The notes below the pieces were generated by a model, which saw only the letters and a list, made by a program, of their open reading frames with translations, was not told the origin of the DNA and did not search any database. From Isoetes taiwanensis (lineage: Eukaryota > Streptophyta > Lycopodiopsida > Isoetales > Isoetaceae), in NCBI GenBank assembly GCA_021234155.1, contig JAJEKV010000005.1, forward strand, positions 12,889,787-12,953,786: 64,000 bases of DNA. Reading direction: 5' to 3'. Position 1 is the stretch's first letter. Each line of letters opens with the position of its first letter. The position numbers and the translations under genes are program-made. Below are positions 1 to 62,099 of the stretch, in pieces.

Positions 1-193
1 TGTCGTTGTGGGTCTCTTAATTTCTGCAGAACAGCTGGGAACTGAAATGCATTGCAGGGAGGTCTTCTCATTCTGCGTGTTGAAATGGACCATGGTTTTT
101 TTAGCGTCCGCGCTGTAAAAACCTATATGAAAATGCTCGAAACAACTCACTAAGCGTGGACCACCACCATGACCCTTGACGTTTGTTTTAAGC
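1..193 (-). CDS. Gene A exon 6 (partial): methyltransferase-like, continues off the window
   Basis: A TTGGCAG acceptor opens this exon at 193. Joining it to the previous exon restores VW-LK, followed by GGGPRLVSCFEHFHIGFYS and an open frame to base 1. The pattern W-x-K, then a charged loop, then E-x(2)-h-I-G is what follows the catalytic motif in N4/N6 methyltransferases. The AdoMet-binding motif is not yet reached. Confidence 0.6.
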
Positions 194-3126
194 CTGCCAA
201 GCAATACAGCAATTAAAAATTAGTAGAAAGAAAACAAGGAAAATAAGTTAGCCCAGTAGTGTGGCGGTATAAACTTATACCACGGTTGCCTTGCTGTATA
301 AATTTATACCACGGCGGCAAGCCATATAAATTTATACAGACATTGCCTTGCTGTATAAATTTATACCACGGTTGTTCCAGCCTTTAAAATTTAAACCTCA
401 AGACAGATGTGGTATAAATTTATACCGTGGAGTTACCGTAAAAAAAAAGCGTTAAATGTAAAGCTTACCAAACGCAGTTTTCGAAGCCGACGTTACAGAC
501 CGCTCCCATAGGTTTAAGCACCGACATCGTCTGCAGGTCGGAATGAAAAATGATGACCCTCCAGTTTTCAGATGTCGTGACTTCTTTTAGGCCATCCAAG
601 AAAGAACGGACTTGCACGTGAGTGAAAGCCTCCTCGTCAAAAGCGCTATCCTTAATTTTGAAGCTATAAGGAATATCTGCAATGCATAATGTAATATTTT
701 GCTTGTCTAAAAGAGTCCCCAGCCTCGTGCAATCACCCTGAACAACCCTGTACTGGACGTCCTGACCAAATCTAGTAAATCTCTCATAAGTAGTGTCAAA
801 ACTGGAAGTGGCGACCTCTTTATCCTGTTCAATTGCCTTAAGCCTATGCCTCTCCTCCTTGGCCCTACGAACCAGGTTTAGAAATCCAGTTGGTAGCCCC
901 TTCTTCTTGTTCTGTAAGAATAATGTGAGACAAAGGCACAAACACAGAACATATTTTCTGCAAAACTACCCAGCCACTGAAGTTAACAGCGTGCTCTCTG
1001 ATGATACTATCTGTGGTGCAACTTGGGAAAGCTTGCACTCCTCCCAGTCCTCTAGGTTTAGCTGCTTCATTAACTCAGCCTGGCAGGTGACAATGTCTTT
1101 CTGACTGCAAAGGGAAAAATATTGTAAGACAAAAAAAGGTAGAAAAAAACACGGCATAGCAAGTGAGGCTTACGTCTTAGCTTCCTTGGCCATCTCGTCT
1201 AATGTGAATTCTTTGGCAACTACTTTTTCCAATAGGCGAACAAATATTTCTTTGCTTTTGAGATCCTGTAACTGCGTCCAGGGTACAATGCTCATATTTT
1301 TTTGTTTTGATTCACCACCTTTTTTTGGTTTCTTTCCTGCGGTGCTAGCTTGTTCTTTAAGCTCACCATCTTCGAACATACAAAAAATTCTCTCTTGAAG
1401 ATCCCACACCTGTAAATGGTCAAACGAAGTTTAGTGTTGAATGGCGTAAGAGAATGGGCACGACGACTAAGCACTGTATAAATTTATACCTTGCCCGGTC
1501 GCGGTATAAATTTATACCGTTCCTGGTCGCGGTATAAATTTATACCGTGCCCGGTCGCGGTATAAATTTATACCGTTCCTGGTCGCGGTACCGGGCACGG
1601 TATAAATTTATACCGTGCCCGGGCCAGGTATAAATTTATACCGTCACCAGGCTATTACACACTTCTAACCACGCTAAACATACTACAAAAGATTGAATTG
1701 AAGCTTTTACTTACTTGACCATCTCTGAAAGCGAGCTGAAAGTAGTTATCGTATTGTTTGACAGCCACAATGGGTTTCTTATCCGAATCATAACTGAGGC
1801 AGCACTCTGTCACACAGGCTTCTCGAAGCTCTTGAAGCTTGTTCTTTTGTTTTTTGAAGTCGTCTCCATGCACTTGTTTGAAATCCACGTACTCTCGGTG
1901 CATGAAGCGAATCTTGTCTATTAGGCTCATTTTTGGTCTGAAGTTATTGTCGAGATTGTGACTCACGGCACTGACTTTTGCCTCTTCGTCTGTTATGCCC
2001 ACGTAAATATGCGCTTCCACGCTTTTCCACACTTCGTTACGGCTTTCTTCCTTTGACAGTTCTTTTCTTGCCTTGTAACTGTGTGTGCCTCCAAGGACAT
2101 AATATGTGTAATCTTCGAAGTCTGCCTTTTTGTAATCTTTTAATTGGTTGCACTGACTTCTATCAACCATCACAACTAGTGGCGACACATGCGCATGAGG
2201 ATTCCTTCTCATTCTTTGCTTAAGGATAGCCACATGTGCCGCGTACAACTTTCGGACCTGAAGCACTCTGACCCCATCTTCATTTTTTGGTGGCCTCTTA
2301 ATAGTGCTTAATAGTGTCAAAGAAATGGCCTGCTTGAGGAGTTTGGTTTCATTTACGTGCTTTAGAATGGCACTTGACTTGTCTGAGGGCCGCACAACAA
2401 TATCAGCTCCAGGAGCTTTTTGTAGAGCTTCTGCTGACTCATCTATAGTCAAGGTTTTTGTGGTTCTTTTCTTTTTGGTAGGAGGCTGTGTATCTACTAC
2501 CAGGGAATGCTTCCTACCCTTTCCCTTTGGCACCACTGGTTCCTCCTCTTCTTCCTCTTCTCGTTCTGAAGCCTCGTCCCTTTCGACATCTTCTTGAGAA
2601 CGTGGGTATCAGAGACCCTTTACCAATTCTTTTTCTTCATAAAGTATTACTGAGGACAAAATATCCACTATGTCCTGTAAGGCAGGGTAAATTAGAAAGA
2701 TGACGGTATAAATTTATACGTGAAGCCACTAAGACAGACTTACATAGCCATTCTTGTAATTCTCCGCCATGTAATCATGGACGTCTTTAGGTCTGCACAT
2801 GCTTATGCGCAGCATTCTACTGTTCAGAACATAAAAAACTTCACCGCTGTCATGATTACACTTCAGCAAAATCTCATCTTCATTTCCAGTTGCAGTCAGT
2901 GTTATCATTTCCCCGGCGGGGTAATAATCATCTTTGGTAAATTTTCCCCTCTCTGAGTGGTGACACAAATACAGGTATGCCTCTGTGGGTTTGCGCTCTC
3001 TCGCACCCCTGTGCACGTACCACATCTGGTCTGACAATTCATATGTTTGTGGCTCTGGTGGTGCCGCCTTTGATGACTGGCCTCTCTGTGAAATACAGTT
3101 TTTTGCCTCTGTTTTGGACACTTTAA
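1..3126 (-). CDS. Gene A: ParB-like / DNA amino-methyltransferase-like gene, multi-exon, C-terminus beyond window
   Basis: Six exons can be joined with GT-AG borders and matching phase: 3126-2744, 2674-1715, 1409-1174, 1104 to about 975, 911-469 and 193-1, where it leaves the window. In order they encode a beta-rich N-terminal region, an acidic and lysine-rich linker (TKKKRTTK, a likely nuclear signal), a ParB-like domain, a charged helical region, and a methyltransferase-like domain with IADIPYSF as motif IV. No ATG was found for the first exon (it opens in frame at a GTG), so a 5' exon may be missing. One in-frame TGA lies at 2609-2611. Otherwise the frame is open. ParB-methylase proteins are known from prophages and bacteria; a plant version with introns is unusual. 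Function (DNA binding, methylation) is inferred. The 3126 start and the border near 975 are the least certain. Confidence 0.7.
265..426. repeat. AT-palindrome cluster A1 (intron 5 of gene A)
   Basis: Copies of TATAAATTTATA with GG/CC shoulders lie at 266-281 (one C mismatch), 294-310, 323-337, 352-367, 381-397 (degenerate) and 411-426 (perfect GGTATAAATTTATACC). Three are followed by CACGG. They all lie within the 468-194 intron. The spacers differ in sequence. Confidence 0.9.
469..911 (-). CDS. Gene A exon 5: methyltransferase-like motif IV exon
   Basis: The exon runs from a TCTTACAG acceptor to TG|GTAAGC. The core reads VQYRVVQGDC, a leucine-rich helix, then NITLCIADIPYSF. This is the arrangement of N4/N6 amino-methyltransferases, where a GDC segment precedes the D-x-P-Y catalytic motif; here it is DIPY rather than DPPY or SPPY. 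A strand VIIFHSD follows. The exon ends NCVW, and the codon for W is completed by the next exon, which supports the splice. In these permuted (beta-class) enzymes the AdoMet motif FxGxG lies C-terminal to motif IV, so it would fall outside the window. Confidence 0.65.
1475..1643. repeat. AT-palindrome cluster A2: iteron-like array in the intron after the ParB exon
   Basis: Six copies of GGTATAAATTTATACC start near 1475, 1503, 1531, 1559, 1599 and 1628. The first four are exactly 28 bp apart. The 12-bp spacers alternate between two GC-rich types (GTTCCTGGTCGC and GTGCCCGGTCGC). The array fills intron 1714-1410, which corresponds in position to the gene B intron that holds the 55,377-55,682 array. 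Confidence 0.92.
1715..2674 (-). CDS. Gene A exon 2: linker plus ParB-like domain
   Basis: The exon opens after a TTACAG acceptor and ends at CAA|GTAAGT. It carries a Glu-rich stretch, a KKKR basic patch and then a ParB/sulfiredoxin-like fold: a helix (RKLYAAHVAILKQRM), the strand and turn YYVLGGTHSYKARKEL and further helices. GGTHSYKA sits where ParB-family proteins have the DG-x-HR / GERR box. Gene B has IIDGQHSVEAQKAL at the same place, and RRYDPAHAMEIV matches the helix before it. This exon also holds the in-frame TGA at 2609-2611, upstream of the domain. Canonical ParB binds palindromic parS and hydrolyses CTP; whether either activity remains cannot be seen here. Confidence 0.65.
2704..2721. 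repeat. AT-palindrome copy A3 inside a 69-bp intron
   Basis: A single CGGTATAAATTTATACG copy lies in the 2743-2675 intron of gene A. It takes up about a quarter of that intron. Confidence 0.85.
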
Positions 3127-3291
3127 CTGTACAAAAACTAGCTTAAAGGACCTAAAATGCACGCTATTTTAACCCTTTATTTGTGTCATTTGACCTTTAA
3201 AACTCAACATTAATGCTCAACTACAAAGGTTCAGGAAATTTTTTTAGACACTCGACACTTTACGAGAATAGAAGCCACAAACGTTGTCTTC

Positions 3292-3581
3292 CGTATAAAT
3301 TTATACCGAAAGTGTTGCGGAGCGGTATAAATTTATCGCCGAAGAGCAAAGCGGTATAAATTTATACCATTCGAGAACACTTTCGGCGGTATAAATTTAT
3401 ACGCCTCGGCCTGGCGGTATAAATTTATACCGTTCTCTAACGCTTTTTGAGCGGTATAATTTATACGCTTCGTCTTCGGCGTATAAATTTATACCGCGAA
3501 AGTGTCCTCGCGAATAGATAAATTTATACCGCTAGCTCGGCGTATAAATTTATACCGTTCAACACTTTCGATATAAATTTT
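3292..3581. repeat. AT-palindrome cluster A4 (ten copies, gene A side)
   Basis: Ten perfect or slightly damaged copies start near 3292, 3323, 3353, 3388, 3416, 3453, 3480, 3516, 3541 and 3570. Steps are 25-37 bp. Spacers contain GAAAGTGTT in the left half and its complement AACACTTTC in the right half, so the whole cluster also has a looser dyad centred near 3440. Confidence 0.9.
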
Positions 3582-3862
3582 ATGGGGAAGACCCTTAGAC
3601 TCACCAGATTAAAAGAGGCGAGAAACTAGAATAGTACCGGAATTGAGACTTATGTGGCCATGGTCGGTATGGATTCGCTTATAGCTGCCGTGGAGAAGCA
3701 ATTTGGAGGGTATATAAGGCGCAGCTTTCGGCCTTCGACTCCTAGCGGATTATGTAGAAAATAGAGTGACCAAGCCCACGGGCTTAAGTACCTCTGCTAA
3801 GTGCCGTTTTAGGTATAGCGTTTCTCCATAAAGTTTCCAATACAAGTGTTCGTGAGTTTTTA

Positions 3863-4032
3863 GGTATAAATTTATACCGTTTACGTTCTATGTTGCCCTC
3901 CTCAGGTATAAATTTATACCATCTCCGTATAAATTTATACAACCGGCTTCAAGTTTGCCTTCTTTGTATAAATTTATACCATCCCCGTGTAAACTTTTAC
4001 CGATGCGCTCTTACGTGGTATAAATTTATACG
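3863..4032. repeat. AT-palindrome cluster A5 (upstream of the DUF7869-like gene)
   Basis: Copies lie at 3863-3878, 3905-3920, 3926-3940, 3965-3980, 3987-4001 (decayed to TGTAAACTTTTAC) and 4018-4032. The last ends about 20 bp before the ATG at 4054. Confidence 0.9.
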
Positions 4033-4053
4033 ATTGTGGCTTAACTTTTCGAG

Positions 4054-5765
4054 TATGGCTCGAGAAAAAAGAAGCTGCAGAGCCTCCAACTCCCGATTCG
4101 CGGGCTTCCTCCCTGCAATGACATTCACACCTCCTCAACCGACACCGGGAAGTAGCCTCGAAAATTACGCCTCCGATATTCAAACCCCATTTCTGTTGAG
4201 TTTACTCCACGACCACCTCGGCTTCCACCACCGGTTCAATTTACTCCACCACACCACGCTCACGAGCGTCGTTTGCCCCCACCAATGCGTTTTACTCCAC
4301 CCACAGGGCTAGAGAGGTCGGACTACCTCCTCCACTTCATTTTAGTACGCCGCCCATAGTCCCACCGTAGGCTAAATCCCCAAGGCAAATCCGCCAACTC
4401 CATCCATTTTCGCTAAATGGTACTACGACAAGTGGGAGGCATCGGCCCTTGAAACTCACGTGTTCTCACGACGCTTCCGGGAGCTGGTCAACCACGCCAC
4501 CAACCTCGATTACTTTTTCCCGGAGAGAGGGAAAGCACCTCCCCAGGACTTGCCCACACCAAACCTCTCGGCATCTACAAGTACACCTCATGTTGATCTC
4601 GGACGAAGAAACACCTCATGTTGATCTCGGGGCGAGGACCTACCAAAGCCACAAGACTCCATGTTGAATTCAAAGCCCCGCAAGTAAGAATCTTAAGCGT
4701 AACTTACACAAGAAAGCATGTACACTCATGGGATGAGGCTCACTTGAGGGCAACACATACAAAGCATTGTTGTTCTCAACGTTGTTTGCTTAAGATTGGA
4801 CTAAAGGAATTGAGGTTGATTCGTGATAGTTCTGATTCAATGACTCGCTAGACCAAAGGGGCTACTTAGCCTTCAATATTAGGCGGATTATGGTGAGAAG
4901 TTTACTTACACGGTGGTGGCCACCCGTCTGTCAAATGGCCTTCAAATTGATTCATGCTTTAGGCGGCAGGCGACTTGACCCTTTGAAGAAAAGGCTTCAC
5001 AAGAATCCGGGCATTAATGACTCGCCATTGCGGAGGCATATCCGAATTCATGCCCTTCAATGTGTTTCACGGATGGAAGGTTTCTTTAAGGAGTCTTGCG
5101 AGAAACTCCCTAATGACCCCATGTACCACTTGAGTGACAACTTCACTAAACGTGAAGTCTACGATAATTATAAGGACATGTGTGTTGATTTGGAGAACGC
5201 CATGTTCCGCTACTCTTACTTCACTGTGCTCTGGAAAAAAGAGTTTTCTCGCGTGTCCATTCCGAGAAAGCACCGGATGTCTGTTTGTGCTACATGCTCT
5301 GAATTAAAAGCTCAGAGACAAAATGCAAGGACACTTCACACTAAAAGTAAGCTTCGAGGACGTGTTCTTGCCTAGTTCTACTTAAAAGTAGGTTCTTTCC
5401 TAAACATGTGTTTCATTTCAGATGCATTGAAAGAGAAACTGAATAAGCACAGAGAACAACAATCCTTATAAAGGAGAAAATTGACAAAACATAGAAAGAA
5501 AGCACTGGAGCAACCACTCAACTACATATCGGTTGTTATTGATGGAATGGACCAGAAGAAGACCACCCTACCACATTTTGTCAATGTGCCTAAGGATGCT
5601 GCTGAAGAAGATTTCATACACCTGCATGCGTTCGAAATTGGAGGGGTGCCAACCTTAAAAATCTGGTTAACCAAAGAAAAATCCTTACTTTTTAAATTTG
5701 GTCGGAACCTAGTTCCTCCAAAAAAAAAAATGGAGGCAAATGTTCTTTATATGGTAGAGGGATAG
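4054..5765 (+). pseudogene. DUF7869-like transposon protein gene, broken
   Basis: An ATG at 4054 is followed by a proline-rich segment with repeated FTPP (about 4190-4310), then KWYYDKWEASALE (about 4420-4610). A Cys pair CCSQRC lies near 4767, followed by a helical region (4890-5347) with CATCSELK. A TTTCATTTCAG acceptor leads to a block with VVIDGMDQKKTTLPHF (5540-5585). D-G-M-D-Q is the hallmark I associate with DUF7869, an RNase-H-like domain of transposon proteins. The frame changes several times, and one in-frame TAA lies just upstream of 5481. Coding stops at 5765 next to A- and T-rich DNA. The minus-strand gene at 48.35-49.4 kb belongs to the same family. Family naming is from memory of the motif. 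Confidence 0.6.
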
Positions 5766-8855: not shown

Positions 8856-8939
8856 ACCAATGGCGCTTCATTTATGCTAAGGTGGTTGGATAGTTACGCA
8901 ACGTGATGAGAGACTTAGCTATAAATTGGAAGGATTGAA

Positions 8940-30714: not shown

Positions 30715-31019
30715 TGTGTTAATGGTAGTTGTGTGAATATATGACTTAACTCTATTGAAAAGATCGACTTTTCGTTAATTACTTATTATGTAATTATAAA
30801 GCTATATTTATAAGTTATACAAATTATATAGCTATAACAACTATTGTTATAAAAGTATACACAATTAATATTATTACAACAAATTTAGGAGTTCATAGTT
30901 AGTCTAAAATCTATGACTCCTATCTTCTCGTAACGTGCTCCCTCCTTCATGCTTCCCTTCACTGGCCTGCACAAGTAGCACATTACGTTATATAAGTTAA
31001 TAAGTTTGTGGTTTTAGGG

Positions 31020-48350: not shown

Positions 48351-49400
48351 TTTTCTTCAACTTAGCACATAAATTGCACTTTGCAAAGTTGTTTGAAGTT
48401 GCTATGGTGACATGATTGAAATGCTTCTTCCATAACCTACTAAAGCTAGGTTGGGATATTAGAAGAATTCCCAATTCTCAAAGTAGGGAATTCACTTCTT
48501 CCAAACTACTCTTTTGAGTACAATGTGATGGCAACCTTTTCTCAACAACTGCTCTTCCCTTTTCATCCCTTCTGCTTTTGTGTGGCATAGACTCTGCATT
48601 GAAATCAATATATTTTTCAAATATCTCCCTGGCAGCCAAGATCCTAGCTGTTGGTCTCAACAAACCATTATTTCCATATAAAGCAATCATGTTCCCCTCT
48701 GCCTGTTTTTTTTTGCCAATTATGCCATGAAGAAGTTGGAATTGCATGGATATTCTGCCATGCTTTTGGACATATCCATTTGCCTAGCAACGGGTATCTT
48801 TTTCTGTTTGGGTTTCTTTCATCCTGAAGTGCATGCTCGAAGTTTGTGTACATGTAGGTCCTCCTCTCATCAACAGTGTACTCTTGAAAAGTGGCTCTTG
48901 CTTCCACCAATTGTTCTATTGTAAAGAATTGCATACAAGCACTCCAACAACAATCTGAGCCCCTAACCTTCACCATTGTCTCACGTTTGGTGTCACTAAT
49001 CAACTTGGCTCTTTTGCTAGGATAATGTCTGGCAACTGATACTTCTCCCCTTTTGCCTAGGTTTAGAGTTTCAACTGCCAATGGATATCAAGACAATCAT
49101 TGTCCCCAACAACCTCAGGCTCTAGAAAAATATAATCCTCCACAAATTGAACACTACTTATAGGCCATGCCATGATGCAAGGAACCTCCAATTGCTTGAC
49201 ACAACCAAAACATTCCTTGTCACCCAAACCTTTACCTTTCCAGTTGTCTTCCAATATCGAAATTGCAATACCAATATTGTCTTCCCCTAGCCTTTCATCA
49301 TTAACAGCTTGACCAGGATCTGCTAGCACAATGACTCCTTGGCCTACTATTTCCTTGTTGCACTTGTGCATGATTCTCACCTTCTTGTTCCTCCATTACA
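48350..49400 (-). pseudogene. DUF8039/DUF7869-type transposon protein, split by the LINE
   Basis: Minus-strand order: GVIVLADPG, VPCIMAWPISSVQF (49,380-49,081), which resembles the DUF8039 domain of plant transposon proteins; a Cys block SDCCWSACMQFF with helices (49,081-48,668); then IFEKYIDFNAESMPHKSRRD (48,747-48,478); then SFSRLWKKHFNHVTIATSN and CNLCAKLKK. The last matches SVCATCSELK and LWKKEFSRVSIPRKH in the gene at 4.9-5.3 kb. After CAKLKK the text becomes LINE, so the D-G-M-D-Q part is lost. Frameshifts occur near 49,070 and in a T run near 48,710. Confidence 0.55.
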
Positions 49401-49883
49401 CCCTACTATAGAGGACTAATTGTTTTTCTTCAACATTCTTGCTAGGAGTTGGTTTTTCATTGATATTGCTCTTTTCAATATGTTGCACACCATCTTGAGT
49501 TGGAGAGGCACCATTGACCTAGGCAAATTGCACCATTTTTAGTCAATGAGTAGGAAAAATTTATTACACCATAAGATAAGAAAAGTATGTACATTTATGG
49601 AATATGTAGAGGTAAATCAAATTTTTTTAAAAGCAAGAAATTCCTTGGAAATAGGTTTAATAAAGAAGAAGAAGAATAATAACAATGGGTGTAAACGAAA
49701 TCATTTAAAACAAGAATTTTCGTGGCAATAACAAGGAAATGACATTTATATAAATATATCCAAATATTAATTATCGAAAATTTAGCCTTCAGATTACGAA
49801 AAGACATATAACTGATAAGGTAGACGTGAGAATTTATTATCCATAATAATATACCCTAGATGATATAGCTGGCGGGAATTTCG

Positions 49884-49950
49884 TACGCCTGGTGTGTTAT
49901 TTGAGGCAATCAATTATTCACGCTAATTTCTAATTAACCATATATAAATC
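49884..49950 (+). promoter_or_regulatory. Promoter-like module P1 with palindrome half and TATA box
   Basis: ACGCCTGGTGTG, then GCAATCAATTATTCACGCTAA, then ATATATAAATCC (TATA near 49,941), then TCTCAAGCTCC and the ATG at 49,988, about 47 bp after the TATA box. The same order recurs at 50,960-51,060. Confidence 0.6.
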
Positions 49951-49987
49951 CGGTTCATGCTCTCAAGCTCCATTCCTTCCAAACGCC

Positions 49988-50387
49988 ATGAAGCGTTCGG
50001 CCTCAGCGTCAAACCTTCATGAAGAATCCGAGGTCTCCTCAAAGAGACGTCGGGTTGAAGAAGCCCCTCAGTTCCCCCCCCCTGATTGATTTTTTGTCCC
50101 AATTCTCCTCTGATTCCGATTCAGAGGATGAAGAGGAGGAGTTGGACGATCAGGATTCTCAAGAATTCCTGACCGCTCTGCTTCAGGGTTGGCTCGACCC
50201 TGAAACAGAGAATGAATTCTCTGAGGAGGAGGAGGAGTTCGACCAATTTTTACATGGTTGCAGGATGAACCAGGTTTGCATGGCTGCCTTTTTCTTTTTC
50301 TAATGCACCTTTCTTTCTCTTTTCTTTTCTAACCTCTCTTTCTTCTTTCTTGCAGACATGGAAGAAGAATGATGTAGATCCCGAATG

Positions 50388-50405
<18 letters not shown>
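49988..50405 (+). pseudogene. Acidic nuclear-protein-like gene, broken
   Basis: ATG at 49,988 reads MKRSASASNLHEESEVSSKRRRV, with a basic KRRR patch. A run of nine C near 50,083 shifts the frame. The next frame is very acidic (SDSDSEDEEEELDD; FSEEEEEFDQFL) to AACCAG|GTTTGC. A second exon after TTTCTTGCAG reads TWKKNDVDPEW and runs into a 31-T tract. No family recognised. Confidence 0.5.

Positions 50406-50421
<16 letters not shown>
50391..50421. repeat. T31 homopolymer
   Basis: Uninterrupted T run ending the acidic gene's second exon. It could be the poly(A) of a lost minus-strand retro-insertion or slippage. Confidence 0.8.
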
Positions 50422-50423
<2 letters not shown>

Positions 50424-50959
50424 GACACGCCTACGGGCATTTTTTTCTGTGATATTTTGAAAAGCCTTCGAGCATCTACTTACAAGCTATTCTTGGCATC
50501 TGTACATATCAATTTTGAATGAAATCAAATAGTTTTCTTCACAAACATTTTCTTCAAACAGTTTTCTTCAAACAGTTTTTCTGTACATAAAAATATTTTG
50601 AATGAAATCAAACTGTTTTCTCCAAGCATTTTGTCTCCAAAGTGTTTTCTCTAAAATTTTGTCTCTGCATTTGTCTCAACAAAGTCTCGGGAACGCTATA
50701 AATCAACCACATGAGAAATCTCTGATTCATCACAGCAGTATAGGAAATTTTCCTATACGACCTAAAACAATTCCCCAACTCAACAAGTCATTTTTTAGCC
50801 TTGATAATTTTGCCTTTAAAATCATTTTTAATTTAGCCTATATAAAATTTCGAAATTCTTTTTTTTTTTAAATGCAATAAATGGAATAAAATGCCGTGAG
50901 AATTTATTGCATAAAATGCAATATTCTCCATATATACCATATACATGTCATGTCTGGCG

Positions 50960-51060
50960 GGAAGACCGTACACCAAGCGTGTTAATTCAAGCAATCAATT
51001 ATTCACGCTAATTTATTTCTAATTATGCCTATATAAATCCATTTCACGCTCTCAAAGTTC
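50960..51060 (+). promoter_or_regulatory. Promoter-like module P2, twin of P1
   Basis: ACACCAAGCGTGT, GCAATCAATTATTCACGCTAA, TATATAAATCC (about 51,030) and a CTCTCAAAG element in the same order and spacing as P1. The DNA downstream (51,065-51,540) has no clear gene. It contains a tandem repeat of about 57 bp at 51,245-51,350 and short frames. Confidence 0.6.
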
Positions 51061-51617
51061 CTACAATTTCTTCCTTTCTTCATACGATTTGTCGGTTGCG
51101 CTTCAGCTGTGTTTGCATCCGCCCTCCTAAAATCTTGGTGAGCAGATTTCTTTTCAGCAATGTTAGATGTTTGGTTTCGGCAATTCCTAACTTACTAAAA
51201 GACTCCGCCTTTTGTTCTGTAGCATCTGTAGCAGAGGACATCGGAGGCTCAGAATTAAAACCAAAAGCAGAGGACTAAGGTCTGCGAATCCAAAAGCCTC
51301 GGAATTAAAACCAAAAGCAAAGTCCTCCGTTCTTCGAATCCTTCCAGCCTCAGAACTCAAGGTTAGTTTTCTTTTAGTTTTAAGCTGCATCTCAATGGCA
51401 GGTTTAATCCAAGAAGACAAGCTTTTGCATTTGCTCGAGGCAGAGGAAGCAGATGATGTTTATGAAAACCAGAATAGTTTTTATAAACTTCATCTGCTTC
51501 TTTTTGTTTCGAGTAAATTCTTGAGTATCTGTTCCTGAATTAATCATGCTATTGCATGCAAGTTCTATTATGAATAAGTAGAAAGCATTAGAAAAATCTC
51601 AAAGATAATATTTGAAA

Positions 51618-52108
51618 CACGCTAAGCGTGTTCCGAATACATGCTAACCTTAGCCTTGAATATGAATACATGCTCGGCGTGCATTCAGTAAAGAGAGAGA
51701 GAAAAAAAAAATATGTACAGATAGATAAGTAAATAGATAAAGGCCAGACAATTATTTACACGCTAATATGAATACACGCTCGGCGTGCATTCAGCAGAGA
51801 GAGAGAAAAAAAAAACATGTACAGATAGATAAGTAAATAGATAAAGGCCAGGCAATTATAGATAAAGGCCAGGCAATTATTTAAATAATTGCCTGGCCTT
51901 TATCTATTTACTTATCTATCTGTACAGGTTTTTTTTTCTCTCTCTCTGCTGAATGCATGCCGTGCGTGTATAGTTTTTCCTATATAGCAGTTTACACGCT
52001 GAGCGTGCAAACATTTTTATCCCTAGTTTCAACTTTTAAGTTAAACACGCGGGGCGTGTCTCTTAGTTTCTAAGTTTATAAATAACTAAATATAACACGC
52101 CAGGCGTG
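51618..52108. repeat. GC-palindrome cluster B1 (CACGC-NNN-GCGTG)
   Basis: CACGCTAAGCGTG at 51,618; CATGCTCGGCGTGCA near 51,669; CACGCTCGGCGTG at 51,775; a decayed copy near 51,957; CACGCTGAGCGTG at 51,995; CACGCGGGGCGTG at 52,046; CACGCCAGGCGTG at 52,096. The last three are 50-51 bp apart and lie just upstream of the ATG at 52,142. Confidence 0.88.
51782..51968. repeat. Long hairpin of tandem and inverted copies
   Basis: A block containing GTGCATTCAGCAGAGAGAG, ACAGATAGATAAGTAAATAG and AAAGGCCAGGCAATTA occurs twice in direct orientation (51,675-51,755 and 51,783-51,861) and once inverted (51,883-51,968), folding about TTTAAA at 51,883. The arm is about 85 bp and nearly perfect. A palindromic CACGC-GCGTG site sits at each far end. 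Confidence 0.85.
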
Positions 52109-52141
52109 AATACTGATACTCTGCTAACTTCCTATTGATAG

Positions 52142-52717
52142 ATGCCAAGTTACATTAATCACCCGATTGATGACGAAGATGCATTGGAATTACATTTGGG
52201 GCAGCAATCACACAGCCCAGCTCCAGTTTCGGCTCCAAGCTCCAGTCCGGTTGAACCGCAGCCGAGCACCAGTCCGGCTGGAGCACCAGTCTTGCAACCC
52301 CTACAGTACATGGATCAAGTAATGATGATGGCAGCAGAGCGCAGGGCAATTATAAATCTGGGCTCTGAGACCCTTGCAATCTCACGGAGGCTGGCCCTCT
52401 TATCTGATCACTTCGATCATGCAGTACATGCATTGATCGAGAGTGAATCTCGCAACCGTCAGCTCGAGATTCAAAATGAGGAGCTGCGTTTTTTAGTGGC
52501 TAGCCTCTATGCCCGGATGCCCCAACACGAACCACTACTACAGGCGGTATACGATGCAATGGAGATGGCTCAACCAATGGAGCAGGAGATGGAGCAGGAG
52601 GAGGAGCAGGAGGTGGAGGTGGAGCTAGAGCCTGGGGTTTTTGCTGGGGTTTTACCTGATCCATTCACTATGCCCTGGAATGGAAATGGGAGTATCGATA
52701 GCCAAGCTACTCAGTAG
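52142..52717 (+). CDS. Coiled-coil protein of unknown function, 191 aa
   Basis: One intact frame. Residues 20-55 are Ser/Pro/Ala-rich; 60-125 form a likely coiled coil (RRLALLSDHFDHAVHALIES, IQNEELRFLVASLYARM); 140-165 are Met/Glu/Gln-rich. Three regularly spaced CACGC-NNN-GCGTG sites precede the ATG by 34-150 bp. No family recognised. Its place suggests it belongs to the same element as gene B. Confidence 0.55.
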   Translation: MPSYINHPIDDEDALELHLGQQSHSPAPVSAPSSSPVEPQPSTSPAGAPVLQPLQYMDQVMMMAAERRAIINLGSETLAISRRLALLSDHFDHAVHALIESESRNRQLEIQNEELRFLVASLYARMPQHEPLLQAVYDAMEMAQPMEQEMEQEEEQEVEVELEPGVFAGVLPDPFTMPWNGNGSIDSQATQ

Positions 52718-52871
52718 ACTGGGCTTGAAACAGTAGATTGTGCTTGAAACAATCTGGGATTTTGTATGTCTGGTTTATCCAGATTATATACAATTGTAAA
52801 CTTTTTCCAATTAATACAACAAATTTTGTCTACTTCTATATTTCTACAATGTAATACATATTACATACCTT

Positions 52872-53265
52872 TTTTAAACTGGTTTTTTGGCCATGCAACA
52901 AATGTTCCAACACTTTCTCCAACCGTATCCCCACCGGGGTGTCTGCGAGGTAAAGCTTCATCCGTAGCGCAGCAGTTAATCACTGTAACTCGGACATACT
53001 TATCCCCGAGCGGAATTCCATGACAGTTTGCAGTCGGATCGATGGAGTCGATCTTGCATAATCCTACTTTCCTTTTCTGATTTGTAGTTAACATGAAACA
53101 TTCATCTTCGACACTGCAGACAATTGCCTATTCAGACACCTTTATTGGAAATTATTGTACAAGCTATAGGAATGAGATACTTACCAGAATTCTGTAACCA
53201 TTCTTGAGAAGCCGATTCGAGTTCTCGAAATCACAGGCGCTATGGAAACGCAGGCGGTCGGGAAA
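52872..53265 (-). pseudogene. DUF8039-like fragment
   Basis: Two minus-strand exons (about 53,265-53,189 and 53,119-52,872) join in frame and read through VGLCKIDSIDPTANCHGIPL and TVGESVGTFVAWPKNQFKK to a GTATGT donor. The closing A-W-P after a glycine turn and I-D-P-x-x-x-x-x-x-h-P-L-G match the start of the gene at 49.4 kb (VLADPG, CIMAWP). It is divergent from gene B, which starts 0.3 kb away. Confidence 0.45.
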
Positions 53266-54100
53266 AATTCGAGTTAGAAGAAAGCTTAGGTTAATTACAT
53301 TTTGGCAGGATAAATATAATCAATGAAAGAACACGGTAGATTGGTTTTTAAAAACTCAATGAAAGAAGTCGGCGGACGGGTTCTTTTTTTTTTTGAAAGT
53401 GAATCTTCGTCATTATTATTTTTATGTGTCAAGAATATTTCGAAACTGCATATTGTGTTTTCTTGAAATTCAAATTTCTCTCAGGTAGAAAACGCTATTT
53501 CTCATACAGGTAGAAAAAGCTATTTCTTCGAGCAACTCGAGCGCTTATCCGAGCGACCTTGCGACTCTGTTACTAGGCGATTCCGGAGATGTCTACTAAA
53601 ACCAGAGGTGGCCGAAGCGGATGGGGCCGAGGAAGCGGTGGCAGAGGAAACTCAAAACCCGGCTCTTCTCAAGTTTCAGAGGACGTTGAAACCCCTATTC
53701 AAGGTATTTAATTTGCCTTGCTGAATACACAGTGTGTGGAGAGTATTATGCATTGCATGAATTTGAGTTATTTCCTTGCCTTCAGTTAATATGGTTTGCA
53801 TGAATTTGAGTTATTATGCTTTGCATGAATTTAAATTATTACCTTTAGTTAATGCTCTGATTGTCTGTTTTTTAGGACATAATTTTGCTCTGTTTTTATA
53901 GAATATAGTTCTTAGTAGTTTTTAACAGAGGGGTATACACCTATTTAGAGCTGGAGGTTTGACAGTTAGAGATAGCCGTGTTCAATGAGGTTAAATAGTG
54001 AGAAATATGGATTCATAAAGGGTACGTAGCTTAAAATGTGGATGCATACTAATTTAGCTTCAAATTCACGCATAGCATGGTATACAGTAAGAGCTACAAA

Positions 54101-54151
54101 CACGCCAAGCGTGAATTGTACTAATTTAGGTTCAAATTCACGCCAAGCGTG
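54101..54151. repeat. GC-palindromes in intron 1 of gene B
   Basis: CACGCCAAGCGTG at 54,101-54,113 and again at 54,139-54,151, with a decayed CACGCATAGCATG at about 54,068. Confidence 0.9.
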
Positions 54152-55376
54152 ATCTCTTGTTCTGGAAAATACAATAATCCCAATGTTCATCTTCTTTTGC
54201 AGTGCCCAAGAGGAAGAAAACCCCTAATAATTTGGGGTCTATTCCTGGTAAGAAACCAAGGGTAGACGACCCAGATATAGTACCATATGATCTCACATTA
54301 GATGATGAAGGGCCGATTCTTATAGCAACCACTGACCCTGCGTGCCCTGAAGAGGAAATGGACGAGGGCGCCGAGTGGTACGTTGACCTTGATAAGACAA
54401 ATGGCAAGCTCGACTTAACTCTCTTCTCGAGGAAAAAGGAAGCAGACAAGATGACCAAACAAGGGATCCTAATCTCTTGTGAGGAAGAGGATGACACCAA
54501 CTGCAAATTGCTCTTGGAGATTACACATAAGCAGAAGAAATATCTGCTCAGACTTACTCACTGTAGAGCTACTGCATACAAGGATACGTTCATGAGGACA
54601 GATGTGAACGGTGAGACATGTTTTAAGTATGGCCCACCAATGTAGCAGTTACGCCAGTATCTATTTGCCAAGGGGTTACAGCTGTGCGTAGAGGCATGTT
54701 CAATAAACCGACACAAAGTCACTATTTGCAGCAAGCTAGGGAATTAGCTGACTTGAAAGCTTCTAAGAGGGTCCTAAATCTAGGGAAGGATGTTCTTCCT
54801 GCAGTTGTCGAAGGTATGGAGGCATCTGTTTTTTAGAATAAACAGGACAGGGTGGCGCAGCTAGAGGCCATGAACAAGCTGAATAAGTACTCTGACCATT
54901 ATCCATTGGGTCTTAAGGAAACTTTTGCGATCCATGTGAAGTCCCTCATCCGTTCACCAAGCTCCATTTATGTTAGCAGAAGATATGATCCTGCACATGC
55001 CATGGAGATTGTTTAGAGCATGATTAGTAATCCAGGTCAAATGCCTATGCCAGCGGATGTGTTACCTTGGGATATGATCTCGAACAAGCCTGTTGTGTGG
55101 ACGAACTTCGAGGAGTTAATGTTAAATGATAACATTAAATTCGTCATCATCGACGGGCAGCATTCTGTTGAGGCACAAAAGGCCCTCATCAGGCAGGCAG
55201 AACAAACGGGCCAAAGCGTGTTCTACAATCACTATGCGTATAGGAGGTGTCATCTCTTGGATGCCAATACTTCACCTGCAGATTTGGCTGAGATTATTGC
55301 AACTTTGAATGAAATGGGGAAGACATTTCTATACAAAAGATAATTGACTGCATTAGGATGTTAGCATTTTAATCTT

Positions 55377-55682
55377 CACGTCAGGCGTGCGTTCAAATGA
55401 AACCAATTCACGCCAGGCGTGCTTTCAAATGAAACCAAATCACGCCAGACGTGCTTTCAAATCAAACCAATTCACGCCAGGCGTGAAATGTTAAAGCACC
55501 TGGCGTGAATTGATTTGATTTGAAAGCACGCCTGGCGTGATTTGGTTTCATTTGAAAGCACGCTTGGCGTGAATTCAACCGATTCGAACGCACGCCTGGC
55601 GTGAATTGCATTGGTATTTAATTCATTTCACGCCAGGTGTGCTTTGAGGTTGATCTCTTCTATTGAAATCGCGCCCGGCGTG
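55377..55682. repeat. GC-palindrome cluster B2: iteron-like array and long hairpin after the ParB exon
   Basis: Ten CACGC-NNN-GCGTG sites start at about 55,377, 55,409, 55,441, 55,473, 55,497, 55,527, 55,559, 55,591, 55,629 and 55,669. The spacing is 32 bp over most of the array. Spacers GCTTTCAAATGAAACCAA in the left half reappear as their complement in the right half, so 55,377-55,490 and 55,497-55,605 also form one long inverted repeat centred near 55,493. Confidence 0.93.
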
Positions 55683-57179
55683 TTTCTTGTCTCGATAATC
55701 GATTCAATGCTCAGACTACGTGGAGCAACCGCCACCGGCCAACAATGGGTGGAATATGGCTTCCCATTACCCATCGCATGTATGGTCAAAGTCCGAGGCT
55801 TTCAAGCTGTTGGAGCCGGACTGACATGCGCATGGAACAACTATACAGGAGAAGAAGAAAACTGCAAGAAAATCAAAGAAAAAAGGTGGTGATGACATTG
55901 CAGATCCTTCTGAAAGCTCATCTAGCAGGTCAGACCCAACAGACTCGTATAAGATTGTGTTTTGTAAGGAGGCAGTATGGCAAAAGTGGAATGAATTCTA
56001 GGACGCTTATGCACAAGAGAAGCTGCCAGATACTATGGGTAGGGTGCCTCCTGTTGATGTAAGCATCTTTGACTTGAATATGACAGAGATGAGAAAGACT
56101 CAGGGGCTAGACGACGCTGAGACCATTTGGGTTTTAGACCAGTGCTTAAAGAAGGAAGTCTTATACAAGAAGAGTGCTTTCACTAAGGATAGGATGTCCT
56201 TCATTGAGTGCTGCAGCCATGTGAAGGATGTACGTACCATGGAATAATTTAATGGCTAAGGTTAGCCAAATTGCTAAATTTTGGGTTTTTTTTCCCAAAA
56301 AACGGCTAAACTAAATGAGAAAAATGGGAAAAAAAAAAGTTTTTAGCCCAAAATTTTCCCACCAATAGTCCAACCTAGGGCAGAATCGCCAAGAGGCCGC
56401 CGCCGGAGTAGCTCCAACGAGTCCTAAATCGCTTAGCCTAAGAAGCTAAGGAGCATGAGAATTTGGTGGATTAGCTAAGATGCATCTACCATAGAAAGTA
56501 TGAATCTTGAAAAATCGCCATGTAGGCTACTGTTTTTTTTTTCCTTAATCCCGTGTATTTGCAATTCCAGGATCATTTTTCAAGCATTCAAGAAGGATTC
56601 GGCCACAAAACTTCAAGAACATTTCTCTGCAAATAGGATTTTCGTTGGTTTCTCATTTCCGTAGACCGATCGATTGTGTTGCTAGTATCGTATCTACTTT
56701 ATCTTCTATAATTATTTTTAGCTTAAATCGCGGTATGCGTAGCTTCATATCTCTTATTTTTTAGGTTGATTATCCGCTTGCATCCGGAGAGACTCATAGA
56801 TCCGTCTATTTTCTTAATCCAGGTGTATTTGCAATTCGGGCTCATTTTTTAAGCATCCAAGGAGGATTCGCCACAAAACTTCAACGCCCTTTCTCTGCAA
56901 ATACGATTTACGTTGATTTCTCATTTTCGTAAAGATCCGCACATGTTGCTCTAGTATCGTATCTATTTTAACTTCTACAATTATTTTTATCTCAAATCTT
57001 GTTTGTAGCTTAATATCTGTTATTTTTAGCTTAATTATCATTTTGCATCGGAAGGACTCATAGATCCGTCTATCTAATTTAGGGCTTCAACCTCAACGCT
57101 TGAATGAAAAATCTAGAAAATTTATGATCTGGGCATATCATAGCCATTCTTACGCCTCCTTATATCATTTGCACTCTTA

Positions 57180-57900
57180 TATTTTGAAGAGCGGATAAAT
57201 TACCAATCGACTTGATATAGAAAGCGGTAATCAGTTACCCAAATGCTTTGGAATGCTACCCGTCAGATTGTTATTAAGGTTCCTAAATAAAATCATATTT
57301 AGGAATAGTAAGATAATTGAGTGCCCCGTTAGAGGATCATGAATGTGGGCTTAACTTCATTCGGTTGGGACTTTGATCTTTGCATTGCAAGATGAGGAAA
57401 CAGCCAGAAGCTATCATCCGCCAAGAACGCATGCACTGGCCGCAAGAAGAGATGGGAAAATGCTAACCCTGTTGGATTGTGGGAGCATCCTTTATGCCCT
57501 CCGGGCATTCGCCAGATTCGATCGGCAAAATGAGCATTCATGAATCTCTATTAGTAGGGTATGTTGAGTGTGCGTGAATTACAAAGATGCTTTCAGCTTG
57601 TACAAAAGAATGCACATTGATTGACATGTATGGCAAAGGTGATACCATAGAGAAAGGACGAGAAATATACATTCAAGTTGCGTAAACGGGTTTAGAAGGA
57701 ATACTTTATCTTTGGAAATGCCGTGATGGACATGTATGCTAAACAGGTGGCCCCTTTATCGAGGTTGGGAATGTTTTTGGAGCAGTTTTTGAGTTCGGAA
57801 GGAATGCCCAAAGTGAGATTATTGTTGTGAAGAGACAACGTTTTAAGAGCAGAGCAAAGCAATTCGAATAGCCCTTTTGGAATTTCTTCACAGCCTATGC
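57180..57900 (-). pseudogene. LRR receptor-like fragment
   Basis: The minus strand reads IPKGLFELLCSALKTLSLHN followed by NNLTLGIPSELKN (about 57,885-57,745) and, further along, NLNNNLTGSIPKHLGN (about 57,290-57,225). These are plant LRR repeats (LxxNxLxGxIP). Short pieces only, with stops; the PPR fragment lies between them on the other strand. Confidence 0.6.
57575..57745 (+). pseudogene. PPR protein fragment
   Basis: Across several frames: KMLSACTKECTL, IEKGREIYIQVA, GNAVMDMYAK. This is the PLS-type pentatricopeptide motif series common in plant organelle RNA-editing factors. Too short and shifted to function. Confidence 0.6.
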
Positions 57901-59133
57901 CTAAGGGTACAAAATGTTATGCATATCTGCAGACATGCGCATAACCGTATTAGGTTTGGCAATAATAATAACAGATGGAAAGCATGCTTCTCATGGAAAG
58001 CGTCGAGGTGTAAATGATTTTCTACCGACTTCATTTTTGTATGGAATGTCCGGTAATTCATTTGGAAACCGTTGCTCAGAGATGTGGCAGAGATTGTGGA
58101 ATGACCCTCATGGTTCATCATGTAATCATAACCCTCATGGTTCATCAAGTAATCATAAAAGGCCATATACAGTAATTAGTTAGTGCTTTATAACTAGTTG
58201 ACTTCTTCGCCGCAGTCTCTCTATTCTTCTCTATTCATCATGTAATTATAAAGGCCTTATACAAAGATGTAATTTGTTAGTGCTTTTTCTTGGTTGACTT
58301 CCTTGCCCACTTTGATACCATGATGAGAAAAGTGAAGTATAAACATGAAGATGACGGAGAAAGAAATAACAAAGAAAGGATGGCCGTAAAATAAAGACTG
58401 GTAATAAGACCAAATGTACAACATTATGAAACCTGCAAGGAACCAAATCTAATTCTGTTTCTGACCTCAGTTCCTCCGACACGGTTTATTTTATCACGGT
58501 GTTTTTATTTTAATTTATTATGTTGTTTGCAGATGCGCAAGGTGGTGTTGGATTTGTTCAAGCTTTGCCTAGATGCCAAGACTATGATTAATACTAACAA
58601 GGGAAAAATTATATATGTTATTAAATGATTGGGTATGCAGAATAAGTTTGATTATTGTGTAATTTGGTAAATATAGCTACAACATAGCCACAACATTCCA
58701 CACAGCAAAAAAAAACATAAGAAACATCCAATTTAGTGTAGACATAAGAAACATCCAATTTAATGTACCTAACAACGCCTAAATATATTCACAATTCTAA
58801 CGATAGACATACACTTGTGTAATTTGGCAAAAAAAACAATCGATAGTTATATTCATAATTGCATACATTTTAATATAATTTAACAAGGACATATTTTAAA
58901 CCTAATAGATATTAGGACCTCCCTCTTCTTCCTCCAAATAAGAATTCCACAACTTTAAACTAGTCATAAGCACGTTGAGTTATTTTCATTTCACCTATTT
59001 TTCATTTTTATTGATAATGCGATCATTCTTGAAAAGCTTTATAATACCTATTCTTGCTTCTAGATGCACGATTGCAAGAAACATCTGACAACTTGTTTTT
59101 CGGAATCTACAGGACATACAGATTCACACGGAC

Positions 59134-59379
59134 ATGCAGATGAAGCGTCAAACGGGCCTTAAGCAGTTCTTGTCTAAGAGGGTGGATTCGGTTGGTACCT
59201 CGACCTCTTCTAGCACTCAAGTTCCTCAAGAATCGTTAAGCAAGGATAGTGCGACTGGTCATATTCCTTCTGAGAATGTGGAAACTGAGGTTCCTCCATC
59301 GTCATCTAGTCAGAACGAGCCTATGTTCAAGTGTAGCCAAATGATAGAAAGTTTTGGGCAAAAAAAATATGAAATTTAG
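59134..59379 (+). pseudogene. hAT/TTF-type N-terminal fragment
   Basis: MQMKRQTGLKQFLSKR followed by a Ser/Thr-rich stretch resembles the N-terminus of TTF-finger hAT proteins (KRQ-x-x-h-x-x-F-F-x-K). It runs into the inverted-repeat end of the 3.3-kb insertion. Confidence 0.3.
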
Positions 59380-60250
59380 CCAAACGAAAGAATTCATGAT
59401 TGAGAAAAATCGCAGAATTTAGCCAAGTGTTAGAAACTTCAGGCGTTGATTTGAAGCAAATTTAGCTAAAGTTATCCTGGCTACACTAAAATATAGGTGT
59501 AGTAATTTATTCCCTGGTACGTACAATGAAGTCAGCTGTAAGAGCTGAGTTACAAAGGCTATCAGGGGATGTGGCATTATCTAAAATTGGATTGCTGGAC
59601 AAATACAAGGTCAGTAATGATGACATCAAGAAGTTTGTATTCTGGTCAAAGGACTTCCTAAAGAATTGGAAGGCTAAAAATACAAAACATAAGGAGACTC
59701 TACCCCCTAAGGTACTGGCCGAGTTGAGAAGAAAAGTGGCCCTTGTGAAGAAGATTACTGGAGAAGAAGACACTGTCCAGTATTCAGTCTCCATTGGGTA
59801 CAAAGGTCTCTTGCCAGAATCAACTTCTTGCCTTAAAAATATATCACTCTTTGTGTTGGATAGCAGGGGTGGAGAGGAGATATGGGCATGAACCAGAAGG
59901 ACTACAGCAGCTTCTTTACCAACTGTATAAGATTGACAACTGAGAGGTCCTTCACTATTGTCATCGTTTGTCCTTCGTGAGTCACACATGCATGCACTAT
60001 CCGCCGCTCATGATCCGAGTGCCTCAAAGTTATTAGGAAGGGATGCCTAATATATGATGTTAAGGATAATGAGCTGCGAACAGAACGGAAGATGGCACAT
60101 GTGATCTTTATTATGATAGCCATGCTGTCAGACGAGGAATATGATATTGCTAAGGCCAAGGGTGACAATAGCAGTGCATGGGAATGTTTTCTTCTAGATG
60201 ATCCAGACTTAAGAACTATATTCTATCATACCGGATCAGGATCGGTCCGT

Positions 60251-61030
60251 AAGTGATGAGTCGAGAAGAGGATGAGGATGGGACCCCCCTCCTAAGTGGG
60301 GAAATCAAGCACGATCTACAAACTAAGGAGAAGGGCCCCTTAAATAAAAAATGGATTTCCCCGCCTATGGCTGCTTACCTCGCCGGAGGCATTTGCTCCA
60401 ATTGATACAACCCGCTTGGAGCTTCATGTTGAGGTTATATTGCCGAGAGGCTCTTATGGGTGTTAGAAGATGTCACTGCTTTGTGAATGATGAGCAGGCC
60501 AAAGACTTTCTTGAACCATTCCTCATGCATGTGCTTGCCAAATCTCCTAAAGGCCCTTATGGCAACCTGAAATCATCAGCAATCAAAAGTCTCGTGACCG
60601 TCCAATTCGAAAGTGGACGATGGTTCCGTGAGGGAACTAGTAATCCCGTACCGATAAGGAAAGCAATGAACAAATGGGCTGCTAAACCGGCTGCTCAAAG
60701 TAATGTGATCGGCTTAACTTAGGGAATATCCTTGCTTCCCCCGGGGTGATGAAAGCAACAATAGAGTAGATTCACGTGTTAACAATGAACTAATTGACAG
60801 GGGCAACCAAACCGAAGGCAACCAAGGCTTACTCTAGTGATTCGCTGGGTTTGCCAAATGAATAGTAAACTAATGTCGGTTTGTGAAGGACGCAGATGGA
60901 ACTAATAGAAAATAACAATTCTAACAAATGGAAGAGCAACGAAGATTAAGGGTGGCGAAGGGGAGAATGATTACCGACGGCGGCAAATAAACCGAAGATG
61001 ATAGGTATGGCCTTGCCCATCGAAATCCCA
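60251..61030. other. Region between gene B remains and the NIF relic
   Basis: An open frame at 60,351-60,722 (FVNDEQAKDFLEPFLMHVLA) could be a C-terminal piece of gene B, but it does not match gene A within this window. The rest shows nothing. Confidence 0.3.
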
Positions 61031-61033
61031 TAC

Positions 61034-61161
61034 CACGCGTGATTTAATTTATATTACCTTTGAATTAAATCGCCAGCGCGTGCTTTGATTATTTTTCGTT
61101 GTCAAACTAAATCACGTCGAGCGCGATTTGGTTAAGACTAACTCAAATCACGCTTGGCGCG
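61034..61161. repeat. GC-palindrome cluster B3, diverged
   Basis: CACGCGTG (61,034), CGCCAGCGCGTG (61,071), CACGTCGAGCGCG (61,113) and CACGCTTGGCGCG (61,149). Spacing is 36-43 bp, directly upstream of the NIF-like relic. GCGCG replaces GCGTG in three copies. Confidence 0.75.
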
Positions 61162-61217
61162 TTTGTATTGTTTGTGTTATCGTATCTTGTTGACCAGATA
61201 CATGTTTGATGTTTCAG

Positions 61218-61854
61218 CTTGCATTGCGTTTCTAAGAAGGTTGTGGTGTTTGACCTAAACAGAGTCCTTTGCAAGACTTTTCCGAAAAATAAAGTGGCTA
61301 GAGATCAGTTTCATTAGACACCAGTAGAATCAAACACCAAGTGGATCTATCATGGTCGCGACTTGAAGGAGATGCTAGATGAGGCATTCAGGTTATTTCG
61401 AGTTGGTATTTGATCATCCATGGAACTAAGGAACATCAAGGATACTTTGGAGGCACTGGGGGAAATGCGTAGACATTGGTTGACCTTTTGGGATCAGAAC
61501 AAATGAGTGAAGTTCACTAATCCCAAGGATCCAACAGGCAAGCCTATCTTCATCAAACACTTGAGTAACATGATGGATGAACTTGGTATCGAGAATAAGG
61601 ATGATATAATCATAGTGGATGATGATGCTCTCAAATGCTTCTACAATCAAACGCAGGCCCTGAATCCACCATCTTACGATCCAAAAAACTTTGCGACAGA
61701 TGATTTTCTGGTGAAGTTTGTGTCTATTATGAATAATTTGGCTATGGGGATGACGGTGGGTGAAGTGTTAGATTCATACCCAGAACTGGATAGAACGGCT
61801 GACATGGAACCACACCTTGTTAAGTATGTGGAAAAACATAAATTGATCCCTTAA
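61218..61854 (+). pseudogene. NLI-interacting-factor (FCP1/SCP) phosphatase-like relic
   Basis: After GTTTCAG the frame reads KKVVVFDLNRVLC, in the place of the HAD catalytic loop D-x-D/N-x-V. Then come WIYHGRDLKEMLDEAFRLF, VGI-stop-SS, LTFWDQNK and, from 61,507, NPKDPTGKPIFIKHLSNMMD, DDIIIVDDDALKCFYNQ and ATDDFLVKFVSIMNNL. Order and spacing fit the NIF family, whose members dephosphorylate the RNA polymerase II tail and other proteins. In-frame stops occur near 61,315, 61,412 and 61,505. Confidence 0.7.
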
Positions 61855-62099
61855 TGTTTTATTGGAATATATGATATTTTTGTATGATGTTTGTGCCATG
61901 TATCGATAATTTCGAGTCTGAAATTGCCTCGCAAATAATACAATCTGTTATTATCAAACCTAATATTATCATCTAAATGCTCTTCAATTTTGGGCTCATC
62001 TATCTTAGCAACTTGCTCTTCATTTTGGCATATTTCAATTCGCATATGAAACCTAGAAGACGTGATTTTGGAGTTGACATAATCCCAATTTAATTGGAT

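Follow-up and report, generated by a model that had tools for sequence, protein, structure and literature searches.

Lineage-specific palindromes accompany putative ParB-methylase genes of multicopy transposon-like elements in Isoetes taiwanensis

Proteins that join a ParB-like domain to a DNA methylase have been described in mobile elements. The Ectocarpus transposon Sola1-1_Ec32 encodes, opposite its transposase, a protein with a ParB-like domain and an N4C/N6A methylase domain; its authors raise the possibility that the protein binds to, and modifies, the transposon encoding it, and they cite green and red algal transposons as also carrying such a protein (PMC12477816). Both this kind of protein and the idea of self-binding are therefore already in print. 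In phages, the ParB-CTPase fold has been reported fused to N6_N4 methylases (PMC12704722). A different reader, VANC21 of Arabidopsis, binds YAGTATTAY in VANDAL21 introns and intergenic regions, and the targets of related VANCs differ (PMC5735166; PMC10398659). Here we analyzed a 64,000-nucleotide stretch of the lycophyte Isoetes taiwanensis (GCA_021234155.1, contig JAJEKV010000005.1, positions 12,889,787 to 12,953,786, forward strand; hereafter the window), which carries two ParB-methylase-like genes, A and B, together with the copies of these genes and a third lineage, C, elsewhere in the genome. In all three lineages, palindromic sites are clustered near the gene, and each lineage has a palindrome of its own.

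An unbiased scan of the window for perfect spaced palindromes (arms of 5–8, spacers of 0–7, at least three different arm letters and at least five recurrences) returned two families, GGTATAAATTTATACC for A and CACGC-N3-GCGTG for B, and no third; C palindromes are absent from the window. With up to two mismatches, GGTATAAATTTATACC occurs 23 times, every one within 266–4032, against a shuffle expectation of 0.01; with up to three, it occurs 25 times. The B palindrome is found 12 times in exact form (span 51,618–55,603), 20 times with up to one mismatch and 31 times with up to two, of which 24 lie within 49,884–61,161 and the seven elsewhere equal the chance mean of 7.1. A first-pass annotation of the window had proposed a separate palindrome family for each locus, outside the exons, with about 30 sites for A and about 25 for B. 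The proposal is borne out by the unbiased scan and by the model exons, which overlap none of the 25 A sites (up to three mismatches) and none of the 20 B sites (up to one mismatch); the counts obtained here are 25 for A and, for B, 20 or, with up to two mismatches, 24 local sites. The exon limits were set in this analysis, and model exons make up 58% of the A locus and 38% of the B locus; tandem duplication means that the sites are not independent in this test. Shuffles, reversed-motif controls and the unbiased scan together rule out a chance origin of the palindromes.

The genome searched comprises 1,658,258,908 bases in 1,110 contigs. The exact A palindrome occurs in it 7,218 times (reversed-motif control, 0) and the exact B palindrome 5,106 times (reversed control, 98). 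ParB-exon matches number at least 133 for A (132 of 3,561 candidates scored) and at least 151 for B (150 of 4,885 candidates scored). Two isolated host genes are thereby ruled out; what had been annotated as two loci are instead two high-copy, mobile-looking families. We read the best matches to each query as loci, those of A consisting of the ParB exon and 1.5 kb on either side. The A core, GTATAAATTTATAC, is present in 30/30 A loci (3–25 per locus), and the B palindrome in 30/30 B loci (192 in total); neither occurs within the matched ParB exon. The 30 A loci contain 249 copies of the exact A 16-mer, or 8.3 per locus, at ~480 times its mean density in the genome.

A genome search with an Adiantum ParB region recovered the A copies and at least 107 places of a further lineage, C, 42–47% identical to the query; among the 150 matches listed, 107 were assigned to C and the other 43, lying at A places, were set apart by hand, and five of the 107 loci were read. 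In each of the five, an unbiased palindrome scan returned the same family, with the core TATTC-NN-GAATA (10–18 per locus), and neither A nor B sites. Of 68 C core sites, three are in open-frame stretches; for one at least, that of locus L070, translation points to a read-through intron. A longer form, GTGTATTC-NN-GAATACAC, occurs 31 times in the five loci and at 4,650 places genome-wide (control, 0). Among the places listed genome-wide, the central two bases of the C palindromes are mostly CG, CA or TG, as expected if methylated CpG decays.

In a midpoint-rooted tree built from ParB regions (A, 21 sequences; C, 5; Adiantum, 6; EukProt, 1; B left out as too distant), A and C formed separate clades that joined against the rest, with local supports of 0.98–0.99. 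A and C are 40–44% identical, and by eye an intron follows the ParB exon at the same position in both lineages; the palindromes there are nevertheless unrelated. Whether the palindrome tracks the ParB lineage was a test named beforehand, and it was passed in an independent third lineage: C has a third palindrome, and no foreign-lineage site occurs in 65 loci (30 A, 30 B and 5 C), in which the A palindrome was counted 457 times, the B palindrome 192 times and the C palindrome 42 times.

Pfam gave no name to the ParB part of gene A. AlphaFold models of the window A exon and of a homologue, P0001, had ParB, Noc, PadC and KorB as best matches, followed by sulfiredoxin. Judged from these models, gene A has a ParB-type N-terminal fold of the ParB/sulfiredoxin superfamily, in agreement with the first-pass annotation of a ParB-like protein. 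Its 44 database homologues comprise 43 Adiantum hypothetical proteins and one EukProt entry, Gb_10123, whose source, read from the identifier, is probably Ginkgo biloba. As to a prokaryotic source, 586 pattern matches in genome contigs yielded no confirmed relative.

In the window, gene A is a spliced minus-strand gene. It has an N-terminal exon (2742–3126, start approximate), a ParB-like exon recognized by reading frame and fold search (1715–2673, with one in-frame TGA near its start) and methylase exons. From the sequence we read the exon after the ParB exon at 1154–1409 (VWDLQERIF...) and another at 978–1102 (limits approximate). The exon at 466–911 contains a methylase motif IV (IADIPYSF) and is matched by Adiantum homologues. 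The methyltransferase exon at 1–193, placed by splice sites and frame, extends to the left of the window and in copy L036 reaches DAFSGSGTT. The gene thus lies on the minus strand as annotated, but its former limits of 1–3,126 are too narrow, as it continues beyond the left end of the window. The A palindromes are distributed over an intron (five at 266–426, up to three mismatches), the intron after the ParB exon (six at 1475–1642, by motif search), the intron before it (one at 2705–2720) and the stretch between two divergent genes (13 at 3292–4032, up to three mismatches).

The divergent neighbor is a broken remnant on the plus strand (4836–5628, cut near 5628), recognized by alignment to a copy on C1080 (L036 and L037). 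There, the divergent gene codes for DUF7869 (PF25273, E = 4.5e-45); the window remnant itself has no Pfam match, and our literature search found no paper on DUF7869. By comparison with the C1080 copy, the A element of the window spans about −803 to 5628, its ends being estimated from two copies. A DUF7869 match lies within 10 kb of at least 37/132 A places, 35 of them upstream and in opposite orientation, and of at least 7/107 C places, all upstream and opposite; among the matches listed for an A-type DUF7869 query, none lies within 10 kb of 50 B places. Shifted controls gave 0 or 1. This sample covered 132 of the 133 A matches (the last being the second piece of one copy), 50 of the 151 B matches and 150 of the 151 DUF7869 matches. 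Both A and C thus have the features of the algal accessory genes, namely both domains, multiple copies and divergent orientation from an element gene. Two further observations concern the surroundings of these elements. Pieces of a tyrosine-recombinase-like gene, which we take to be Crypton-like, lie on the minus strand 3.4–5.1 kb beyond the DUF7869 gene (L037, 7932–9629; Phage_integrase E = 0.0014, below the cut-off). Adjoining the A element on its left, at window positions −1628 to −1074 on the minus strand (L035), is a fragment that by eye resembles the C-terminal part of gene B, as if the elements nested in one another.

The linkage of DUF7869 to A and C raises the alternative that the palindromes are binding sites of this protein, as a possible transposase, serving transposition or its control, and that the ParB-methylase has another job. 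Repeated transposase sites are common among DNA transposons, and one of ten A-site groups that we examined has a DUF7869 match nearby, among those listed, with no listed ParB exon. However, many of the sites lie in the introns of the ParB gene and in the divergent promoter rather than at the element ends, and B, next to which no DUF7869 was listed, has sites of its own. We regard this alternative as unlikely.

The placement of the sites is also relevant to autoregulation, in which the protein would repress or tune its own promoter through operator-like palindromes. KorB and P1 ParB regulate their own operons in this way, KorB is among the structural matches of gene A, and the palindromes flank divergent promoters and occupy upstream regions. 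Dozens of sites per element, many of them intronic, nevertheless exceed the needs of an operator, and there is only a small chance that autoregulation is the explanation.

Comparison among copies bears on whether the palindromes have a reader at all. In the 70-bp intron before the A ParB exon, the mean pairwise identity over 30 copies is 0.972 for the palindrome (2705–2720 in the window), 0.808 for the rest of the intron and 0.860 for the upstream exon (Mann-Whitney p 0.001), and the 14-mer is intact in 25/30 copies. Gene A is under coding constraint. The matched exon is without a stop in 24/30 loci, and the ratio of nonsynonymous to synonymous substitution (dN/dS) of the ParB exon has a median of 0.07 over 276 pairs and ranges from 0.08 to 0.65 among the 15 closest pairs, with dN lowered by the choice of loci by protein similarity. 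If the palindromes were instead neutral tandem repeats that hitch-hike with the elements, one would expect what is seen in their regular spacing (mostly 28–32, 32 and 41–43 bp) and in repeat numbers that vary among copies, as from tandem duplication; the little constraint in a B intron and the location of most exact A sites outside the A copies listed fit this too. Hitch-hiking is nonetheless improbable, given that three unrelated repeats are all palindromes, occur in 30/30, 30/30 and 5/5 loci and are absent from the ParB exons, and that one A palindrome is conserved above the neighboring exon.

Beta-class N6/N4 methylases carry a motif IV of the form (D/N/S)PP(Y/F), or a close variant, and a motif I, FxGxG. 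Among 13 scanned Adiantum or EukProt homologues, four (P0001, P0005, P0024 and P0032) match N6_N4_Mtase (PF01555) above the cut-off; among solved structures, RsrI methylase ranks as the best relative of P0001. Motif IV reads ADIPY in 19/30 A loci, the other 11 having no match (in L006 owing to a frame break), and ADLPYGF in 4/5 C loci, so that in both lineages the first P is replaced, by I or L; DAFSGSGTT in L036 is of the motif I type. By these sequence features, A and C keep beta-class N6/N4 methylase motifs. The methylase-like exon of B was matched in 22/30 B loci, and at the place of motif IV eight of these read FVLD[SN][RK]GG, nine have variants and five are unreadable, with PY in none. 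The B-type fragment to the left of the window has, by eye, FALLDTT at the FxGxG place, and profile comparisons of the B C-terminal part with methylases were negative. The order of the parts and the motif spacing by eye suggest that this part is a former methylase; if that holds, B is predicted to bind without methylating. A purely restriction-like role, with the palindromes as the methylase's own modification sites, would agree with the motifs kept in A and C and with the PF01555 matches but is very improbable, as B retains its sites with motif IV in no readable copy.

On the plus strand at the other end of the window, gene B comprises a proposed first exon (53590–53703), a ParB-like exon (IDGQHSVEAQKAL; 54203–55342, with two TAG codons and a frame break), a proposed and broken next exon (55700–56240) and, by eye, the methylase-like part (59520–60250, FVLDSRGG). 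The intron preceding the ParB exon holds three B palindromes (54067–54151) and the one following it nine, in an inverted-repeat arrangement (55377–55682), all by motif search; three degenerate ones follow downstream (61029–61161). Another seven (up to one mismatch; 51618–52108) precede a 191-amino-acid open frame (52142–52717, plus strand) with no Pfam match at the cut-off. The window copies of both genes are broken, A by its in-frame TGA and B by its two TAG codons and frame breaks; intact, open copies of both ParB exons exist elsewhere in the genome, and 7/30 B loci read have open ParB-exon frames of 389–408 amino acids.

Farther upstream, at 49860–51060, two similar promoter-like stretches ~1.09 kb apart each contain a degenerate B palindrome (two mismatches) and a TATATAAATCC box. 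Between the A and B loci, a 468-amino-acid open frame (37395–38801, minus strand) resembles histone H3 at its C-terminal end (Pfam E = 3.3e-27; best solved matches H3), behind a long N-terminal stretch of ~345 amino acids. The same interval contains a MULE transposase domain with a SWIM zinc finger (23976–25630, plus strand), a reverse transcriptase (46927–48477, minus strand; RVT_1 E = 4e-37) that by eye is LINE-like, and a 137-bp inverted repeat (30264–30721) with arms 96% complementary and 184 bases apart.

From these results, we infer that genes A, B and C serve as accessory genes of transposon-like elements present in many copies, and that each codes for a DNA-reading protein that has a ParB fold and, C-terminal to it, a methylase-type part. 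Each protein would recognize the palindromes dispersed in the introns and promoters of its own element, and a private protein–site pair per lineage would confine its action almost wholly to its own family. Most probably the protein would mark its own element and so sustain the element's expression in the face of host silencing, as VANC does in VANDAL transposons; adenine or N4-cytosine methylation possibly helps in A and C, and B would act by binding alone. It is quite likely that each of the proteins recognizes the palindrome of its own lineage. An outcome that is mainly anti-silencing has a chance somewhat short of even. We hold the explanation as a whole, a transposon-type self-recognition protein with cognate sites and VANC-like anti-silencing, with moderate confidence. 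Among the roles that the first-pass annotation had listed, anti-silencing or self-regulation fits best, and nothing observed points to segregation.

Several observations weigh against this explanation. Because copies within a family are related, the 65 loci amount to three independent cases. The 133 A copies listed would hold only ~1,100 of the 7,218 exact A sites, and one of the ten A-site groups lies within 10 kb of an A ParB exon among those listed. Another group (G000:C2:481792-481986) comprises six A core sites, with no recognizable A gene in the 1.5 kb around them, and is perhaps a non-autonomous element; sites outside the listed copies may be held by unlisted copies, fragments or non-autonomous derivatives. 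Palindromes away from such genes, named by the first-pass annotation as an observation that would count against a ParB/parS-like system, thus do occur and count weakly. As to constraint, the conserved A-intron palindrome ranks only 6th of 43 overlapping windows, and in the B intron the arms (0.91 and 0.92) show a small excess over the flanks (0.85 and 0.90). No terminal inverted repeat was found in one 20-kb copy, and transposase is only a candidate role that DUF7869 may have.

Further points against it concern the proteins. Helices are at the expected place in the central helix-turn-helix region of the models, with low predicted local distance difference test scores (pLDDT ~40–65). The canonical ParB P-motif is GERR; its arginines are absent in every lineage read, the position being occupied by GGTHS in A, GGNHS in C, DGQHS in B, GGCHS in Gb_10123 and GGTHS or GGTHF in Adiantum. 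Since the P-motif arginine is required in the proteins surveyed (PMC12704722), a CTP clamp cannot be assumed. The homology of A and B, stated in the first-pass annotation, is weak at the sequence level, with E = 0.38 in BLASTP and, in comparisons of profiles, E = 0.069 (23 columns) and 0.0055 (80 columns); the similarity of B to A and C is marginal. Gene B has DGQHSVEAQKAL at the place of GGTHSYKARKEL in A, and an intact B frame gives a weak DndB match (E = 0.011, below the cut-off), which points to the same fold class as A. With seven intact B copies as query, no protein-database homologue was found at E ≤ 0.01 among 8,000 scored candidates.

More tentatively, self-recognition could be part of a broader history, in which vascular-plant transposons turned a phage-type ParB-methylase into a ParB–parS-like self/non-self code. 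New protein–palindrome pairs would arise as families diverge, and the protein would load at its sites and spread over its own element and non-autonomous kin, leaving them unsilenced; methylation would be optional, having been lost in B, and the system would be a convergent counterpart of VANC. If self-recognition with anti-silencing is correct, plants would have another, independently built sequence-specific anti-silencing system, and its natural orthogonal reader–site pairs could be used for epigenome work. As three lineages with thousands of private palindromes each provide named targets, binding, specificity and anti-silencing are directly testable.

Bacterial ParB–parS, Noc and KorB share with the Isoetes proteins the reader-domain fold, modeled for gene A, and short palindromes near the gene; the Isoetes proteins differ in lacking the P-motif arginines, in the methylase part that follows and in having dozens of sites per element. 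The phage ParB-CTPase–N6_N4 fusions have the same combination of domains but are prokaryotic; the main text of that survey mentions neither plants nor transposons (PMC12704722). VANC of the Arabidopsis VANDAL elements is likewise encoded by a transposon and reads a short motif in intronic and intergenic sequence of that element; the targets, often in tandem repeats, differ between related elements (PMC5735166), as the palindromes do among A, B and C. The three Isoetes lineages thus show a VANC-type trait, a lineage-specific motif in the non-coding parts of the own element. In contrast, YAGTATTAY is non-palindromic, neither a ParB fold nor a methylase is mentioned in the portions available of the VANC report (PMC5735166), and anti-silencing is experimental for VANC and a prediction for A, B and C. 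The algal ParB-methylase is similar in its two domains, in its position opposite another element gene and in residing in a large transposon. The available part of that report describes no target sites (PMC12477816), and the top-ranked results of a literature search on ParB with plants, algae and transposons reported no cognate palindromes. The Isoetes system differs further in its vascular-plant host, with homologues in Adiantum and probably Ginkgo, in its DUF7869 partner and in one lineage without the methylase motif. With ParB-methylase proteins themselves already noted in algal transposons, what is new here is that the putative targets can be named, with one palindrome for each of three lineages.

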